Shown piece after piece: positions 8,003 to 14,640 of a stretch of 64,000 nucleotides of DNA. The notes beneath the pieces were generated by a model that did no database searches, was not told the origin of the DNA, and was given only the letters and a program-made list of their open reading frames with translations. The stretch covers positions 62,001 through 126,000 of the forward strand of contig CANEZP010000011.1 of assembly GCA_947444305.1 (NCBI GenBank), given 5' to 3'. This DNA is from Pseudobdellovibrionaceae bacterium. Lineage in GTDB: Bacteria; Bdellovibrionota; Bdellovibrionia; Bdellovibrionales; UBA1609. The position numbers were made by a program, and so were the translations under genes. The first letter of the stretch is position 1. Every line of letters starts with the position of its first letter.

Positions 8003-8873
8003 CAACGGCCTCACCGCCTATTCACTCGTCGACCAGAAGACCAAGGCTAAACTTAGGCTGGAGCCTGAAAATATTCTTGGGCGTGAATCCGGTTTAAAAA
8101 CCGAAACGATGAGCCGCCGTCACTGCCAGATCGTGACCAAAGAAAACCGCTGGTTTCTCGCCGATCTCGATTCGACCAACGGCACTTTCCTGAACGGAAA
8201 AAAGATGAAACCACGCGAGTGGTATTCATTGAAAGTCGGCGACGAGGTCGAATTCGGCTCGATGGTTTTCAATTTTGCGGGTCCTCGTTCGAAGAACGAA
8301 GCCAACATCGAAGCCCCGCGTGCCGACACGGTCTCGATCGTTGAACCTCGCGATGGCGAGGCGACGTCGCGCCATAAGGTGCCCGTGGTGGAATCCGCGC
8401 AAGCGCCCGCGCCGGCTTCCGCCGTGGAATTGCCTTCGCTCGGCGTGCGATTCCTCGCATTTTTGATCGACACTTCATTGAGTATCTTGATTTTATTCGC
8501 CTTGTTCTTACTGATCCAGAGAAGTTCCCGAACTATATTTTTTGAGGCCACAATTGCACTCACCCTTGTTATCTGGGCTCCCATGTTTTTGCGCTCGCAA
8601 TCTCTCGGTAAGATGGCCATGGGTTTGAAGGTCGTCCGTAACGCCAGTACACCTATGGGTATCGGCCGGCTCATGCTTCGCGAAATCGTTTTGAAGTTTC
8701 TCAGTTTTTACGTATCGCTTTTAGTTTTCGTCTACCTTTTTAAGATCAGCTTACTCACCCTTTTGGCCACCGTCCTTTTTTACGTCGCCATCTTTCTTTT
8801 GTACCGCTGGCAAGGGGCAGTTTTTTGGGATCTCGTGCTAAAGACCCGCGTGGTGAAGGATCAAAATGAATGA
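7992..8873 (+). CDS. FHA-RDD membrane protein
   Basis: The 293-residue protein has an N-terminal FHA domain (about 15-95). It shows the phosphothreonine-binding signature ILGRES, SRRHCQI and DLDSTNGTFLNG. A linker of about 50 residues is followed by an RDD membrane domain (about 148-290) starting LGVRFLAFLIDT, with SLGKMAMGLKVV between membrane segments. FHA domains bind phosphorylated threonines, and RDD proteins are linked to transport. The fusion suggests a membrane protein recruited or regulated by Ser/Thr phosphorylation. It overlaps both neighbours (11 bp upstream, 8 bp downstream) and so is tightly coupled in an operon. Confidence 0.88.
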   Translation: MPSSNGLTAYSLVDQKTKAKLRLEPENILGRESGLKTETMSRRHCQIVTKENRWFLADLDSTNGTFLNGKKMKPREWYSLKVGDEVEFGSMVFNFAGPRSKNEANIEAPRADTVSIVEPRDGEATSRHKVPVVESAQAPAPASAVELPSLGVRFLAFLIDTSLSILILFALFLLIQRSSRTIFFEATIALTLVIWAPMFLRSQSLGKMAMGLKVVRNASTPMGIGRLMLREIVLKFLSFYVSLLVFVYLFKISLLTLLATVLFYVAIFLLYRWQGAVFWDLVLKTRVVKDQNE

Positions 8874-9483
8874 ATCGATTGTTGAATCTTTAAACTTTCT
8901 TGAATCTTCGCATGATTTTGTTGAGCTGACCGACGGTGAGGATTTCACGATCGATCTGCGTTACGGCACGACGAATAACTTCGTCGGACAAAACATGTAC
9001 GGTCCGTTCAACAAAGCTTTCCTTCATCAAGTCGCGGCCGAAAAGTTATTTAAAGCGCTCGGCTTCCTGAAGAGCGCGCACCCGGATCACCGCTTTCTAA
9101 TCTTCGACGCCCTCCGACCCAGGTCCATTCAACGTATCCTGTGGAGTAACGTCGAAGGCACCGTGAACGAAAAATACATCGCGCGGCCCGAGCCCGGCTC
9201 GCTCCACAACTTCGGCTTCGCGGTCGACCTCTCCATATTGGACGGCGCCGGCCGCGAGCTCGACATGGGCGCGGGTTTCGACGACTTCCGCGACATCGCG
9301 CAACCGCAACTCGAAGCCCAATTCATCAAGAACGGCCAACTCACGCGCCTACATTTTCACAACCGCATGATGTTACGGTCGGTCATGGAAAGCGCCGGCT
9401 TCACGCAACTCGCGCACGAGTGGTGGCACTTCGATGCTTTGCCGAAGGCGGAAGTGAAAGACCGGTTCCGGGTCGTGGAGTAG
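8866..9483 (+). CDS. D-Ala-D-Ala dipeptidase, VanX/DdpX family (M15D)
   Basis: This 205-residue zinc metallopeptidase probably hydrolyses D-Ala-D-Ala or related muropeptides. The zinc ligands are readable: H114 and D121 in SLHNFGFAVDLS and H188 in HEWWHFDA, with E185 as catalytic base. The conserved arginine lies in FDALRPRSIQR. No N-terminal signal peptide is visible, so it is probably cytoplasmic, as for VanX and DdpX. There it would recycle or scavenge wall dipeptides. It is the last gene of the operon that contains the barrel protein and the FHA-RDD protein. Confidence 0.92.
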   Translation: MNESIVESLNFLESSHDFVELTDGEDFTIDLRYGTTNNFVGQNMYGPFNKAFLHQVAAEKLFKALGFLKSAHPDHRFLIFDALRPRSIQRILWSNVEGTVNEKYIARPEPGSLHNFGFAVDLSILDGAGRELDMGAGFDDFRDIAQPQLEAQFIKNGQLTRLHFHNRMMLRSVMESAGFTQLAHEWWHFDALPKAEVKDRFRVVE

Positions 9484-9617: not shown

Positions 9618-9624
9618 AAGGAGA
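9618..9624 (+). promoter_or_regulatory. Strong ribosome binding site of the precursor peptide
   Basis: AAGGAGA lies 5-6 nt before the GTG at 9630. It is the strongest Shine-Dalgarno site in this locus and is what makes the small GTG-initiated frame convincing. Confidence 0.75.
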
Positions 9625-9629
9625 ACACA

Positions 9630-9752
9630 GTGAGCATTAAAGAGATGATCAAAAAAGTAACCGCGAAAGACGTTAAATCAGCGACTAAAGCGGTTAAGAA
9701 GTTCGAAGCCGGCTCGGCAAATTCAAACATGATTATGATCGCGTTTGATTGA
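9630..9752 (+). CDS. Putative RiPP precursor peptide (40 aa)
   Basis: A GTG-started frame of 41 codons encodes a 40-residue peptide. The first 26 residues (starting MSIKEMIKKVTAKDVK) carry eight lysines spaced as in an amphipathic helix and would be the leader. The end, AGSANSNMIMIAFD, is a distinct small-residue linker followed by hydrophobic residues and a terminal Asp, and would be the core. It has a strong Shine-Dalgarno site, is followed by a terminator, and precedes genes for an HExxH peptide-modifying enzyme, a cupin and an exporter. That is the classical layout of a ribosomally made, modified peptide. The cleavage site is not evident, as no Gly-Gly motif is present. The identity is inferred from context. 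Confidence 0.75.
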   Translation: MSIKEMIKKVTAKDVKSATKAVKKFEAGSANSNMIMIAFD

Positions 9753-9762
9753 TTGAGTTAAT

Positions 9763-9792
9763 ACGCCCCTGCTTAAAGCGGGGGCGTTTTTT
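9763..9792 (+). terminator. Rho-independent terminator / attenuator behind the precursor gene
   Basis: ACGCCCC (9763-9769) pairs with GGGGCGT (9781-9787). The stem is extended by a T-G wobble and GCT/AGC, closing on a 3-nt loop, and is followed by six T residues (9787-9792). It lies 11 bp after the precursor stop and 12 bp before the next start codon. It probably gives abundant short transcript for the peptide and lower read-through for the enzymes. Confidence 0.85.
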
Positions 9793-9804
9793 ATGGAGTA
9801 ACGT

Positions 9805-10662
9805 ATGTACGCTTTGTTCGGATTTGCCCACAACATTCAAAATGTATTCAAGCTAGCCGCGCCCTACGCCAACGCGCAAATTGAAACCGTCGATGATCTC
9901 GCCGTTCCTTTCCAAAAATTCCTTACGGCTTTACACAAAGATATGCCGATCAACACGAGCTCGGATCAACTCATCATTAATCCTCAAACCGCGGCGAAAT
10001 TAAGCGGCGCATTTGCGGGCAGCCGAATCAATGACCTTCATCAGGAACGCATGGTCAACGACCTATACACCGGCGATGAATTACTAAACCGAGCCGAGAT
10101 GGCGCGCCATAAGATTCACGCGTTGCGAGAACTCAATAAAGAAGTCGGCGAATTGTTTCGGCTCTGCGTCCATTCCGTATTACTCGCAAACTCGGCTTCC
10201 AATAACGAAGGTTTACGCGCGCACGGTGGCTCCAGCAACCGGTGTATCGGACTAGTATGGTTAAGCTTGCACGCGCAGCTCTCCACGCAAGACATCGTCG
10301 AAATGTTGATTCATGAGCTTGCCCACACACTGGTTTTTGTTGATGAGCTATCGAACGGACATTTTCATTACGAAAGCATGACCAAGAAAGAAAATTGGGC
10401 TCAATCCTCTATCCTCAAGAGAAACCGCCCGATGGATAAAGTCGTTCACAGTATTGTCGTCGCGACTGAAATCATAAACGCCCGCATCCACTATCTTCCT
10501 AACGTCGACACCTTGACCGTCCATCCCGGCACCGCTGAATTGAAATTATCTGCTTTGAGGGCGATTGACAGCGTCCTGAATCATTCAAATTTAGAGGCCA
10601 TTTGCCAGCCACGCGCCATCGAATTGGTACGCACAGCACGTGAATACGTGCGGAATGTATAG
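9805..10662 (+). CDS. HExxH-motif peptide-modifying enzyme
   Basis: The 285-residue protein carries H170-E-L-A-H174 in MLIHELAHTLVFVDEL. Further on is the block KRNRPMDKVVHSIVVA, whose H215 is a likely third metal ligand. This arrangement, with an RP-x(5)-H segment about 40 residues after HExxH, matches the 'HEXXH motif' proteins found beside RiPP precursors (mod_HExxH). Some of these are reported to be iron/2-oxoglutarate peptide beta-hydroxylases rather than proteases. It probably modifies the 40-residue peptide just upstream, for example at the terminal Asp, but the target residue is a guess. A TGGAG lies 6 nt before the ATG, and the gene is downstream of the attenuator. Confidence 0.78.
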   Translation: MYALFGFAHNIQNVFKLAAPYANAQIETVDDLAVPFQKFLTALHKDMPINTSSDQLIINPQTAAKLSGAFAGSRINDLHQERMVNDLYTGDELLNRAEMARHKIHALRELNKEVGELFRLCVHSVLLANSASNNEGLRAHGGSSNRCIGLVWLSLHAQLSTQDIVEMLIHELAHTLVFVDELSNGHFHYESMTKKENWAQSSILKRNRPMDKVVHSIVVATEIINARIHYLPNVDTLTVHPGTAELKLSALRAIDSVLNHSNLEAICQPRAIELVRTAREYVRNV

Positions 10663-10672
10663 GATTTCAAAT

Positions 10673-11743
10673 ATGAACGATTACTACGCCGGACTCTTGA
10701 ACTTTACCGCTAATATTGAAAAATCATGGCTCCGATACAATTACGCCACTGAAGATTTTCATAAGGTCGTTGCGGACCATGCAGAGGACTTCGATCTTTC
10801 GCCGCTGGGCGACCTTACCTTCCAGATGCAATTACTCGATCACCCTTCCGTTCGGGTCAATCAGCACCGGTCGACATTCTCGGATTACCATAATCAAATA
10901 TTTCATAACGGGCGCTTCCTGATTGAAATATTAAATTGGAGTGGGAGCCACGTGAACGTTCACGATCACGATTTCTCGGCTTTACAATTCCAGTTAAGAG
11001 GAAACTCTCTCAATGTCGTCTATGACTTCGATCAAACTTCTTCGGCGGGAGCTTTGAATTTTGGCCGGCTCAGCGTTCGTCATGCGGAGATGTGGAAAGC
11101 CGGCGACCGCTCCGTCGTTCGACACGGAAATCAAGACACGCACAGCGTATTTCACCTTAGCGTACCGACGACAAGTCTGCTTATTCGCACAGCCCCCACT
11201 CCCCGCTTCGGGGCACAATCAAATTACTTCCCCACGCTCTCGGCAAATTATTACGTCAATTCAGAAATTCAACGCAAGAAACTGACCGGTCTTGCACTGC
11301 TCGCCCGGCAAGCGCCCGCTGATTTCACATCAATGCTTGAGAAGTTTTTGAACGAGCAGAGTTTGAGCGAAAACTTTTTCATGCTGCTGAAACTTGCCGA
11401 ACTGCCGTTCCTTGAACGTTATGTCCAGACGGTCATCACCTACGCGGAGAGAGGCGAAAGTGAAGCCAAGCTCGTTGAAAGTGTGATCGCGAATAACGGA
11501 ATCGACTTCTTCAAATCCCGGGCGAGCGCAATGACAGATCTCCCCGAAGCGGAAAAACTTGCCGCTTCTATCGTGGCGGCCGGCTCGAGTGACGTCGGGG
11601 TTAGAAAGATAATCACTGATTTATCCGAATTGGGAATCGCGATGAACTTTAAGGAAGATCTACAATCTTTCGTGCGCCGATTGAACGAAAGTGACCGTGA
11701 CATGGCTAATCGCTACCTTAGTATCTTTAACGTGGCGGTATAA
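10673..11743 (+). CDS. Cupin-like metalloprotein of the peptide locus
   Basis: The frame opens at 10640, but ATG 10673 follows AGGA (10661-10664) and is preferred, giving 356 residues. The first half looks like a cupin. HVNVHDHDFSALQFQLRG supplies H93, H97 and H99, with Gln in place of the usual Glu, and GDRSVVRHGNQDTHSVFHL fits the second cupin motif. The second half (about 190-356) looks helical and is not recognised. A non-haem iron oxygenase, or a metal-dependent partner for the HExxH enzyme, is the most likely role. It lies 10 bp after that gene and 1 bp before the exporter. Confidence 0.6.
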   Translation: MNDYYAGLLNFTANIEKSWLRYNYATEDFHKVVADHAEDFDLSPLGDLTFQMQLLDHPSVRVNQHRSTFSDYHNQIFHNGRFLIEILNWSGSHVNVHDHDFSALQFQLRGNSLNVVYDFDQTSSAGALNFGRLSVRHAEMWKAGDRSVVRHGNQDTHSVFHLSVPTTSLLIRTAPTPRFGAQSNYFPTLSANYYVNSEIQRKKLTGLALLARQAPADFTSMLEKFLNEQSLSENFFMLLKLAELPFLERYVQTVITYAERGESEAKLVESVIANNGIDFFKSRASAMTDLPEAEKLAASIVAAGSSDVGVRKIITDLSELGIAMNFKEDLQSFVRRLNESDRDMANRYLSIFNVAV

Positions 11744-11744
11744 A

Positions 11745-13124
11745 ATGTTTCAGAAGACTCATCGGGAGATGATTAATCGGTCGGGCCTACTCAGTTTGCT
11801 ATGGGCTACCCTTCAGCAAATGGTCGTTGCGTCTTCAACCTATTTCATAATTATCGCAAGCCGCCTCGGTGCCGAGAAAGACTTCAACGGTGCGCTGAAA
11901 TATATCGCAGCCTTCGCGGTGAGTCTCTTAGTGGTTTTTCTACCGAACACTTTGTCTCTAATATATCTACAAAAGTGGCGGCTTGAATCTTTTGAGAAGT
12001 TCGTGAACTCTTTCACGGCAGTTAATTTTGGTAAAACCACTTGGTCACATAACCGAGACAAAACCGTTCATGAATCCTGGCTCACCAACGAAGCGTTGAA
12101 TGTGTACGACAATGCGACCAACTTACTTTATCAGTTCTTTTCAACGCTCTTATCCTTTGTCCTGAACATTGCGGTCATCGCAGTGATCCTGGATTGGCGG
12201 ATCCTCGGCTGGTATCTCGGAGCCTGCCTCGTTCTCTTCGTCTTTAACCGCGTTTTTCAGAAGACGATCGCCGCGGCCGCCCTGGGCGCACAGGCGGCCC
12301 GAAATACCCTGAACAACACGATGCTAACGGCTTGGGAAAATATATTCATCGGCAACAGATACAATATCGAGCGGTGGCACGCCGATCTCAACGTAAACCT
12401 CGATGGTAGCCGCCGCGCGATCGTTCATTACGATTTGGTACGTTCACTGATTAGCAGCGTGACCGTCTCTCTCGCGATTGTCTTGATCGCCGCCGGCAAT
12501 GCGATTTACTTGTTTCAATATCGTGACGATATGCCGATGATCGCGGCGTTAATGATTACTTTTCCGAGACAACTACAAACCGTACAAAATATTTTTGCCT
12601 TCTTTAATCTTTGCTTAAGCTGGTCCGGGATCTCACATCAGTTAAGTCAGCTTAACGATTTTTTAAGCATGAGCCAAACGCCGCGCAATCCTGAACGTTT
12701 CGTTCAGTTCGCCAACATATCGATCGCGCACGGTAACGAAAGTTTTAAGTCGACGGCCGCTGCAGAGCTTATTCAGCGCCTTGAGGAATCCACCTGTGGA
12801 CGCTTCACCTTGCGCGGCAGAAACGGTATGGGGAAATCGACTCTCCTCGCGCTTATCGCCGAGGGTACCGGGGATCGTTCCTTCTTTTTACCTTCGAAGT
12901 TCGGCGAGTTGGCTTTTCGTCACCTCGACACCGTTCAGGAGTCGGACGGTAACCGCTTGCTCGCGGTCTTTGAGGAAATACGCTCGATCAACGGCGTGAA
13001 ATTCGTACTCCTAGATGAATGGGATGCGAACCTTGATGCCGAGAATATTCGTCTGATCGATGAACAAATCAATCTTTTGAGTAAAACCGTCACCGTCATT
13101 GAATCTCGACATCGCGGTTCCTAA
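11745..13124 (+). CDS. ABC exporter half-transporter of the peptide locus
   Basis: With the ATG at 11745 the product has 459 residues, short for a fused exporter (usually 570 or more). The first 310 residues contain about five or six membrane segments of the ABC exporter type. The nucleotide-binding part (about 335-459) has a Walker A, RGRNGMGKSTLL, and a Walker B, VKFVLLDEWDANLD. The C-loop between them reads QESDGNRLLAVFEEI instead of LSGGQ-type. No C39 peptidase domain is present, so leader removal would need another enzyme. It probably exports the modified peptide. It is cotranscribed with the flanking genes with 1-2 bp gaps. Confidence 0.75.
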   Translation: MFQKTHREMINRSGLLSLLWATLQQMVVASSTYFIIIASRLGAEKDFNGALKYIAAFAVSLLVVFLPNTLSLIYLQKWRLESFEKFVNSFTAVNFGKTTWSHNRDKTVHESWLTNEALNVYDNATNLLYQFFSTLLSFVLNIAVIAVILDWRILGWYLGACLVLFVFNRVFQKTIAAAALGAQAARNTLNNTMLTAWENIFIGNRYNIERWHADLNVNLDGSRRAIVHYDLVRSLISSVTVSLAIVLIAAGNAIYLFQYRDDMPMIAALMITFPRQLQTVQNIFAFFNLCLSWSGISHQLSQLNDFLSMSQTPRNPERFVQFANISIAHGNESFKSTAAAELIQRLEESTCGRFTLRGRNGMGKSTLLALIAEGTGDRSFFLPSKFGELAFRHLDTVQESDGNRLLAVFEEIRSINGVKFVLLDEWDANLDAENIRLIDEQINLLSKTVTVIESRHRGS

Positions 13125-13126
13125 AT

Positions 13127-14158
13127 ATGCTCGATCTACTACCGAATCCGTTATCACTCAAAACCCAGGCACCCGATTCACCGTTTGAAATGAGCGAGGT
13201 CGTGACCCTCGCTCACCACGGCTGGGCAACCCTCCCCTCATCTGGCAATTCGGAGCGGTACCGCCTGGTGAAACGCCTCGATGATGCAAAGTGGAGTGCC
13301 GTTAGATTGGAGCGCGACCGGCTCTCCGCGAATTTTCAAGGGAATCCGCTGTGGCCCCATCAAGTCCTACAAACGTACAAGCAGCTTTCCGATCATTTTG
13401 GCTTGGAAGGAGCGTACACCGCCGACGCCTGTTTGCTACCCTCGGTTGAGACCATCAATCAAAAACTGAATTCGATTGGATTGGGTGACTTCACGTTTCA
13501 GAATGCCGGTGAAATTACACTCACCGACCAAGCTTACGTTGATGCTTTTATAGACGACGGCTATTTACCCATGGCGGCACCCGAGGATCGCGATAGCATC
13601 CATGACTGGAGCTACCATTTCCTGACGCTGCTCTTCACCGATTACCTGGAAAATGTCCGCTTGAATCTCGCGTGGATTCGTAAAAACATCGGAGTCTTCG
13701 AGGGCCAAGTCGTACGGAATTGGAATTACTATGGCCATCGCCAGGATACCTATAAAAAGTTTATCGGCGAAATTAAACCGGAAGCTATGGACTGGGCCGA
13801 TGCCATTTACCGGCAAATGGCCATCTCTCTTGATGTCTGTACCGCTAAAATCGTGCAAATACTTTGCATGGAACAGCGGGGTTTGCTTGAGAAATGTTCG
13901 GGTGAACTCAACATAGTTTCTATTTTCTCGAACGGCGTCACAGACGAATCTTTGGCTAGGATTCTTTGGTTAGAGCCGGAACCGGATTCGATTCTCTCAC
14001 CGCCGGCGGTGGGCGCAGGCCGCAAGTATCCACCTTGCGCGATGACGTACATCAAGGCCAAGCTTTCGTACCTTGAACAAAAAGCCACTACCCAAATTTC
14101 CCCGGAGCTTTCCGCGGAACGCGCGCAATTTTTCGACTCGATCTTAAGCAATGTCTAA
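13127..14158 (+). CDS. Unrecognised protein of the peptide locus
   Basis: This 343-residue, apparently soluble protein without a signal peptide or membrane segment starts 2 bp after the exporter stop, so its link to the locus is strong. Its middle contains a histidine/aromatic-rich stretch (DSIHDWSYHFLTLLFTDYLE, then RNWNYYGHRQDTYKKF) followed by long helices. Two cysteines occur in DVCTAKIVQILCMEQ. It could be a second modifying enzyme or a peptide-binding partner, but no known fold is recognised. Its 3' end overlaps an alternative ATG at 14151. Confidence 0.6.
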   Translation: MLDLLPNPLSLKTQAPDSPFEMSEVVTLAHHGWATLPSSGNSERYRLVKRLDDAKWSAVRLERDRLSANFQGNPLWPHQVLQTYKQLSDHFGLEGAYTADACLLPSVETINQKLNSIGLGDFTFQNAGEITLTDQAYVDAFIDDGYLPMAAPEDRDSIHDWSYHFLTLLFTDYLENVRLNLAWIRKNIGVFEGQVVRNWNYYGHRQDTYKKFIGEIKPEAMDWADAIYRQMAISLDVCTAKIVQILCMEQRGLLEKCSGELNIVSIFSNGVTDESLARILWLEPEPDSILSPPAVGAGRKYPPCAMTYIKAKLSYLEQKATTQISPELSAERAQFFDSILSNV

Positions 14159-14223
14159 ACCGTCTTCACTAACGAGCGCTCTACCGCGCTTTAGCCGCAC
14201 GGGCGTTTGCAAAATCAGTCAGC

Positions 14224-14640
14224 TTGAAGCTAAAACTGTCTCGGATTACCTGTATCAATTTGGGATTAGTTACTCTCACGCTTTTGGGTTGCGCAAAGTC
14301 CGAACCGAAGGACGATATAATGTGCATGACCCCGGCCATTCTAGCCTTCATCTTTGCGGATGACGTAGGAGTGCCCCGGGGAACCGTCGTTCGCACCAAT
14401 CTGAACAAAACCGTAAATCTAATAGCCGAATATGAATCAGCGTCGGGCTGCGTGGCAACGCGCGAAAACTATTGGTTGCTAGACGAAGCAGCAGAAACTC
14501 GTGTCTATAATACGTGTTTATCCGTTGATTACTCCGCCCCTGGACGGCATCTTATTCGTTTTATGAAATTGGAACCGCCCGGTTTATGTAGTCCGACGGC
14601 CGGTATGGCCAGCATCGATGTTCTGATCGACGTTCAATAG
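14224..14640 (+). CDS. Small lipoprotein at the end of the peptide locus
   Basis: The 138-residue product begins MKLKLSRITCINLGLVTLTLLGC, a good type II signal peptide with lipobox LLGC, followed by a small cysteine-containing domain (four to five cysteines). The only usable start in frame is TTG at 14224, because no ATG, GTG or other TTG follows the in-frame stop at 14170. Its ribosome site is weak, so translation may be coupled to the upstream gene. Another frame begins with ATG at 14151, overlapping the previous stop, and runs to 14363, but it lacks any protein-like features. A self-protection or surface-receptor role for the peptide is possible, by analogy only. Confidence 0.55.
   Translation: MKLKLSRITCINLGLVTLTLLGCAKSEPKDDIMCMTPAILAFIFADDVGVPRGTVVRTNLNKTVNLIAEYESASGCVATRENYWLLDEAAETRVYNTCLSVDYSAPGRHLIRFMKLEPPGLCSPTAGMASIDVLIDVQ

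Follow-up and report, generated by a model that had tools for sequence, protein, structure and literature searches.

A Probable RiPP Gene Cluster with an aKG-HExxH-Type Enzyme, a Cupin Partner and a Conserved MIAFD-Like Precursor Tail in a Pseudobdellovibrionaceae Bacterium

Introduction

Enzymes of the alpha-ketoglutarate-dependent HExxH (aKG-HExxH) family are already known from the biosynthesis of ribosomally synthesized and post-translationally modified peptides (RiPPs), namely from the pfl/pos, pes and bpm systems and from fusions with radical-SAM proteins, and the characterized relatives beta-hydroxylate Asp, His, Gln or Pro (PMC12636437; PMC13060819). Here we analyze a locus with a gene of this family in a 64,000-nucleotide stretch of a Pseudobdellovibrionaceae genome (contig CANEZP010000011.1, positions 62,001 to 126,000), referred to as the window, within which all positions are counted. 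A short peptide gene, a stand-alone HExxH enzyme, a cupin, a compact ATP-binding cassette (ABC) transporter and an orphan 343-aa protein follow one another in this locus, which we consider likely to be a horizontally acquired RiPP cluster.

The pfl and pos systems of Pseudomonas (enzymes PflC and PosC) pair a stand-alone aKG-HExxH enzyme with a short precursor whose conserved C-terminus is modified and with a transporter, and contain no protease; their precursor is of the NHLP type, with Gln repeats and an ARMD end, and an MNIO-nitroreductase serves as partner (PMC12636437). PosC and PflC also cleave the peptide chain at an Ala close to its C-terminal end, leaving an amide; this Ala is the only residue of ARMD that PosC needs, and a C-terminal extension is tolerated (PMC12636437). 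The pes system of nitrilobacillin has an aKG-HExxH hydroxylase, PesO, and a precursor with a conserved C-terminus (PMC13060819), the bpm system of biphenomycin joins the HExxH protein BpmH to the JmjC protein BpmG (PMC12257519), and the fused radical-SAM/aKG-HExxH cyclophane enzymes belong to the same HExxH domain family (Morishita 2024, via PMC12452194).

Results

Locus Layout

One transcription unit spans window positions 9630-14158 and comprises the peptide gene, a hairpin and the genes for the HExxH enzyme, the cupin, the ABC transporter and the 343-aa protein. The sequence confirmed the gene coordinates and order of the initial annotation, as well as its short gaps from the HExxH gene to the 343-aa gene, claimed as 1-10 bp and measured at 10 bp (HExxH-cupin), 1 bp (cupin-ABC) and 2 bp (ABC-343-aa gene). 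The features are as follows:

9618-9623, + strand: ribosome-binding site AAGGAG of the precursor gene, read from the sequence
9630-9752, + strand: precursor peptide gene with GTG start, 40 aa, MSIKEMIKKVTAKDVKSATKAVKKFEAGSANSNMIMIAFD, identified from homologues and a profile
9763-9787, + strand: terminator-like hairpin and T run, a probable attenuator, with an 11-bp stem and T tail (fold z -3.75)
9805-10662, + strand: aKG-HExxH-type peptide hydroxylase, predicted, with the motif HELAH (TIGR04267, 55.7 bits)
10673-11743, + strand: putative cupin oxygenase with a thiol-dioxygenase-fold domain (residues 1-194) and a C-terminal helical domain (198-351), from an AlphaFold2 model and fold matches
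11745-13124, + strand: compact ABC half-transporter (predicted exporter), 459 aa, without a peptidase domain, from its motifs and its place as neighbor in most related loci
13127-14158, + strand: orphan 343-aa accessory protein, whose sole other copy stands at the same position in the related locus G046/L068
14224-14640: lipoprotein-like gene with TTG start, outside the conserved unit after a 65-bp gap

Precursor Family

The window precursor combines an N-terminal leader, helix-T-helix in pattern, with the C-terminal core NMIMIAFD. An equivalent peptide gene was found directly upstream of a HExxH relative in approximately 38 loci from at least seven phyla, and this short open reading frame (ORF) at the equivalent place in homologous loci supports the RiPP-type locus that the initial annotation had proposed. 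The conserved part of these peptides is the C-terminus, [L/M]-[N/R]-M-I-A-[F/Y]-[D/E], which is likely the modified core; the ends seen include MIMIAFD, MNMVAFD, MNMLAFDA, LNMIAYEDQ, VRMIAYDDL and LRMIAFDQNN, and the residues that follow the motif vary in length and sequence. The core Met occurs in all 38 precursors, followed by Ile in 27, Ala in 33, Phe or Tyr in 28 and Asp or Glu in 31, counts that are upper estimates given that the motif itself was used for collecting. The locus sequences, 590 kb in all, contained 6041 short ORFs, of which only 31 ended in the motif; 30 of these were the ORF directly upstream of the HExxH gene and on its strand, while the remaining one lay on the opposite strand. 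A leave-clade-out profile, built without the window peptide and its four nearest relatives, ranked the window peptide first of the 651 short ORFs of the window (E=6.4e-9, with the next at E=1.7), a test that is less circular than the residue frequencies. The precursor matched no Pfam or NCBIfam model. In an Acinetobacter plasmid locus examined later, the gene before the HExxH gene, 68 bp upstream and annotated as hypothetical, carries IPLRMIAYEDM, and a Staphylococcus warneri plasmid locus retains only PLRM of the motif.

The leaders share a recurring pattern, helix-T/S-x-[E/D]-[E/D]-[I/L]-helix, in which charge is free. The window leader has eight Lys or Arg residues in an amphipathic pattern, whereas its L068 homologue has none and nine Asp or Glu residues, and leaders elsewhere are Glu-rich rather than Lys-rich. 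The 40-aa peptide of the initial annotation was upheld, with homologues in place, but its Lys content is not conserved and the MIAFD tail is diagnostic instead; with homologous leaders acidic, a Lys-rich, cationic character was rejected as the defining feature. As a separate observation, the precursor of Moraxella bovoculi (L084:7671-7836) is apparently split over two frames, leader and MRMIAYD tail, by a frameshift or a sequencing error.

The attenuator claimed after the peptide gene corresponds to the hairpin and T run at 9763-9787, and it recurs: 21 of 27 precursor-enzyme spacers of related loci fold with z <= -2.5, with unrelated sequences. This recurrence is consistent with partial termination, by which peptide would exceed enzyme.

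HExxH Enzyme

The HExxH protein matched TIGR04267 (IPR026337), now named aKG-HExxH-type peptide beta-hydroxylase at NCBI, over residues 105-229 with 55.7 bits against a cut-off of 40 (E=5.8e-15), and its relatives scored between 47 and 89 bits. By sequence it is a member of the aKG-HExxH peptide hydroxylase family, with the corresponding activity predicted. Ten homologues share 25 invariant columns, including H170-E171-x-x-H174, H215, R208 and R227. The Pfam peptidase matches (M90, SprT and M64) reached only 11.0-16.9 bits against gathering cut-offs of 25.6-26.2, the weak likeness to Peptidase_M90 and SprT having E values of 0.005-0.007. An ordinary metallopeptidase was rejected on these scores, together with the want of a convincing peptidase relative among solved structures, and the peptide-modifying enzyme proposed by the initial annotation is supported. 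Sequence searches of solved structures with the HExxH protein, the cupin and the 343-aa protein returned nothing useful; one of them gave only a marginal match to cysteine dioxygenase (CDO).

Cupin and the Extra Met

The cupin matched no family model. An AlphaFold2 model built from nine sequences (predicted local distance difference test, pLDDT, 92.1) gives it a predicted thiol-dioxygenase fold: the best matches of residues 1-194 were mercaptosuccinate, cysteine and 3-mercaptopropionate dioxygenases at Z 13-15, including 8vni (Z 14.8, 169 residues aligned, 3.0 A) and 4qm9 (Z 14.4, 148 residues, 2.7 A), with plant cysteine oxidase (PCO) and ADO at Z 10-12. H97-D98-H99, H157 and H161 are invariant in nine homologues, and H97, H99 and H157 may, as far as the alignment alone can tell, form a three-His iron site. 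Cys is absent from all nine distinct precursors of the cupin loci, and a non-peptide thiol may still serve as substrate.

An extra Met, separated by one residue from the core Met that follows (MxM), was found in 10 of 10 loci with the cupin versus 1 of 28 loci without it (Fisher p=2e-8, ignoring ancestry). In L074 and L075 the cupin is absent and the Met position is Phe. On the tree, gain and loss of the cupin can be explained by as few as two changes, which gives two concordant independent contrasts. As a lead from these sequences, the extra Met of MxMIAFD is a candidate cupin substrate.

Weak relatives of the cupin also occur, sometimes in tandem, in approximately 40 of the 369 Bdellovibrionota genomes; these stand-alone cupins were rejected as the same system after six loci (L062-L067) were inspected and found to have no HExxH gene nearby.

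ABC Exporter

The nucleotide-binding domain of the ABC protein is shortened, with approximately 60-66 residues between Walker A and Walker B, where ordinary ABC domains have roughly 100 or more. In the window copy Walker A reads GRNGMGKST and Walker B with the D-loop LLDEWDANLD, the latter shared by almost all members of the family, in which the signature is STGQ or SDGN. The ABC gene adjoins in most related loci, and in Bordetella sp. 02P26C-1 (L089:7977-10241) a single 754-aa ORF encodes HExxH enzyme and compact exporter as a fusion. No C39 peptidase domain was matched in the 459-aa protein, whose match to a PCAT-type model starts past the peptidase part of that model; because the ABC protein has no C39 peptidase, a leader protease must be encoded elsewhere, as has likewise been proposed for pfl/pos (PMC12636437).

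Related Loci and Their Distribution

The search for the same gene order in other genomes found all five genes, in the same order, in Bdellovibrionaceae UBA6776 (Bdellovibrionales; G046, locus L068), where the peptide is 46% identical and the other four proteins 48, 51, 48 and 41%. Peptide, HExxH enzyme, cupin and ABC protein are present in G054 and G135, and peptide, HExxH enzyme and ABC protein in G026 and several others; in total, 12 of 369 genomes of the phylum hold a relative of the enzyme. A wide scan, which took one genome per species (84,980 species) and two peptide patterns and is not a census, yielded 43 loci, with Pseudomonadota, Actinomycetota, Cyanobacteriota, Bacteroidota, Verrucomicrobiota, Armatimonadota and Bdellovibrionota represented. 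The genes added to these loci differ: JmjC_2-domain proteins in Burkholderiales and Vibrio, methyltransferases in cyanobacteria and Photorhabdus, and, in Streptomyces (L071), an MFS exporter and a protein matching the RiPP maturation radical-SAM C-methyltransferase model TIGR03975 (634.6 bits, cut-off 281.85). This recognized tailoring enzyme in a homologous locus, as assigned by its sequence, supports the RiPP reading.

Tandem HExxH paralogues were seen in Amoebophilaceae (L099:8001-9719), Nannocystis (L106:8001-9801) and Streptomyces boluensis (L107:7722-9515), and broken HExxH genes that keep the precursor ORF, i.e., decaying copies, in Cardinium (L108:8001-8871) and Photorhabdus tasmaniensis (L110:7923-8483). 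Additionally, the genome of the window encodes a second HExxH-like protein (L010:5719-9994), which at 31.8 bits falls short of the cut-off and is accompanied by a GNAT-like gene, then a small ORF and a YydG-like radical-SAM protein (75.6 bits, likewise below the cut-off), possibly another, different RiPP locus.

Horizontal Arrival

The four main genes have 48.5-51.0% G+C, compared with 54.6 +/- 2.0% for the 50 other window genes, and all but one of the four fall below the entire range of those 50; their codon use deviates as well, reaching the extreme in two or three of the four. The three congeners retain the gene order around divIVA but lack the locus at this site, which is itself variable, holding a dipeptidase gene and a small ORF in G028 and a different 438-aa gene in G026. 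The shorter version of the locus in G026 sits elsewhere, beside a tRNA-Ser gene (L008:9012-9104), a usual integration site. Because of the low G+C and the absence from the same site in congeners, the locus was probably acquired horizontally, and the computations bear out what the initial annotation had hinted from a few hand counts.

Remaining Genes

The 343-aa protein occurs in 2 of 369 genomes of the phylum, with 42% identity between the two copies (41% in the five-gene locus comparison). As the initial annotation had said, it is unrecognized: it matched nothing in family-model searches or in the defense-system and phage libraries, and a structure predicted from two sequences (pLDDT 41.6) gives no predictable fold. 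Those libraries gave a single weak match, that of the ABC NTPase. The lipoprotein-like gene at 14224-14640, which had been counted as part of the locus, was rejected as a cluster member, with no counterpart in the G046 locus, no homologue in the related loci and no family match. Just upstream of the unit, a D-Ala-D-Ala dipeptidase gene (8866-9483; Peptidase_M15, 90.8 bits) overlaps a gene for an FHA/RDD membrane protein, and one congener that lacks the RiPP locus has the same dipeptidase gene in the equivalent position.

Discussion

Taken together, these results make it probable that the locus is a horizontally acquired RiPP cluster which works as follows. The HExxH enzyme, dependent on Fe(II) and alpha-ketoglutarate, would bind the leader and oxidize the tail M-I-A-[F/Y]-[D/E]; its most likely reaction is to beta-hydroxylate the acidic or the aromatic residue conserved there. 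A second oxidation would follow, carried out by the cupin and, as we propose, directed at the additional Met of M-x-M, either as S-oxidation or as a thioether-directed reaction. The product would leave through the compact ABC transporter, and a housekeeping protease encoded elsewhere in the genome would remove the leader. The hairpin after the precursor gene would keep the peptide in excess over the enzymes. The analysis itself shows the order of the genes, their homology, the precursor motif, the modeled cupin fold, the recurring hairpin and the lack of the locus at this site in congeners, whereas recognition of the leader, the place and kind of oxidation, the succession of steps, export, proteolysis and any bioactivity are inferred. 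RiPP chemistry is proposed because a gene-encoded precursor and a peptide hydroxylase co-occur across phyla, and hydroxylation of the acidic or aromatic residue is favored on the ground that each is conserved to about the same degree as the Ala.

Several points weigh against this proposal. The pattern used for collecting precursors was drawn up after the first loci had been seen, which makes the residue frequencies somewhat circular. On the tree, no more than two changes underlie the association between cupin and extra Met, too few to reach significance by themselves (sign test p=0.5), and the Moraxella locus L084, with its apparently frameshifted precursor, has the extra Met without a cupin. 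Furthermore, the scheme does not explain the 343-aa protein, neither a protease gene nor an immunity gene was found, and the product, modified residue and activity are predictions.

The alternative that survives best, possible although we doubt it, is a reaction like that of PosC and PflC, in which the HExxH enzyme would alpha-hydroxylate the tail Ala, the backbone would break and A-[F/Y]-[D/E]-x(0-12) would be released, leaving a C-terminal amide (...MNMI-NH2). The Ala present in 33 of 38 precursors and the free length and sequence of the residues after the motif agree with such a cut, as does the need of PosC for no residue of the ARMD end other than Ala and its tolerance of an extension (PMC12636437). 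However, conservation at the Phe/Tyr and Asp/Glu positions roughly equals that at the Ala, something not required of a tail that only marks a cleavage site, although this argument is itself weak since the other three residues of PosA are dispensable though conserved; moreover, neither ARMD nor an MNIO partner is present here.

A second alternative, compatible with the scheme proposed above and in our judgment rather improbable, concerns the purpose of the product, which would be a secreted metal-binding or signaling peptide with beta-hydroxy-Asp/Glu and Met or oxidized Met as ligands. Beta-hydroxy-Asp is a known metal ligand, the core of the cupin loci offers M-x-M and a C-terminal acid, and no immunity gene was recognized; on the other hand, no receptor, metal regulator or uptake gene was recognized in the loci.

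It is very unlikely that the HExxH protein is instead a zinc protease that removes the leader of an otherwise unmodified peptide. The zincin signature HELAH, the weak likeness to Peptidase_M90 and SprT, and some hydrolysis by PflC without a leader (PMC12636437) speak for it, but the peptidase matches fall far under their cut-offs where TIGR04267 is exceeded, the search of solved structures gave no convincing peptidase relative, and the cupin, JmjC or radical-SAM proteins that accompany it in related loci suggest tailoring by oxidation. Least credible of all is the idea that the peptide has no leader and is a cationic antimicrobial peptide or bacteriocin, exported unchanged, with neighbors serving another purpose, given that the eight Lys/Arg residues and amphipathic pattern of the window leader are set against acidic leaders in homologues, a nearly invariant C-terminus and the co-occurrence of precursor and HExxH enzyme across phyla.

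Going beyond the single cluster, we regard it only tentatively, with somewhat less than even confidence, as one of a new RiPP class present in at least seven phyla, spread horizontally, marked by the almost invariant C-terminal core M-I-A-[F/Y]-[D/E] and served by a dedicated aKG-HExxH clade that oxidizes this core (in a tree built without PflC, BpmH and PesO), by a cupin redirected, in the cupin subgroup, from thiols to a peptide Met and by the LLDEWDANLD exporter.

With these relatives a single odd operon becomes a testable family, in which enough is defined of the precursor, core motif, enzyme and exporter for co-expression in E. coli and mass spectrometry. Such work would extend the small set of characterized aKG-HExxH RiPP enzymes by a new core sequence, would reveal how a thiol-dioxygenase fold acts on a peptide without Cys, and would yield a peptide natural product from bacteria that are predatory or live in association with insects and amoebae. 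The precursors lie outside all Pfam and NCBIfam models and are therefore missed by curated searches; the motif and profile enable genome mining of what is missed.

Comparison with Known Systems

The initial annotation had found no standard RiPP class for this locus. This holds for the precursors and partners, which differ from those described, but not for the aKG-HExxH enzyme, which already occurs in pfl/pos (PMC12636437), pes (PMC13060819) and bpm (PMC12257519). In the literature and models searched, which left most subscription papers outside their scope, we found no description of the precursor family, of its cupin partner or of the compact exporter; no paper had a MIAFD-type motif in a RiPP context, and matches elsewhere were unrelated.

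The locus resembles pfl/pos in its stand-alone enzyme, short precursor, transporter and absence of a protease, and differs from it in the MIAFD end, the leader of approximately 30 aa and the partners, a cupin of thiol-dioxygenase fold (as modeled) and a compact ABC protein; no match to the MNIO-nitroreductase family was found among the window proteins at 9630-14640. The pes system differs by its MNIO, nitrile synthetase and M16 peptidases and by a C-terminus of R(V/T)DN. The pairing of HExxH and JmjC proteins in bpm recurs in the Burkholderiales and Vibrio relatives, whereas the FRF core, ortho-tyrosine formation and cross-linking of bpm set it apart from the window locus. Unlike the fused cyclophane enzymes (cited in PMC12452194), the window HExxH protein stands alone, with no radical SAM in its locus. 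The cupin is like the thiol dioxygenases (cysteine, mercaptopropionate, PCO and ADO) in its predicted fold and in the conserved HxH and downstream His, and unlike them in an extra helical domain of 150 residues, a Cys-less precursor and an identity of only 10-19%. Viewed against these systems, the locus looks like a RiPP family that is new but belongs to a kind already known.

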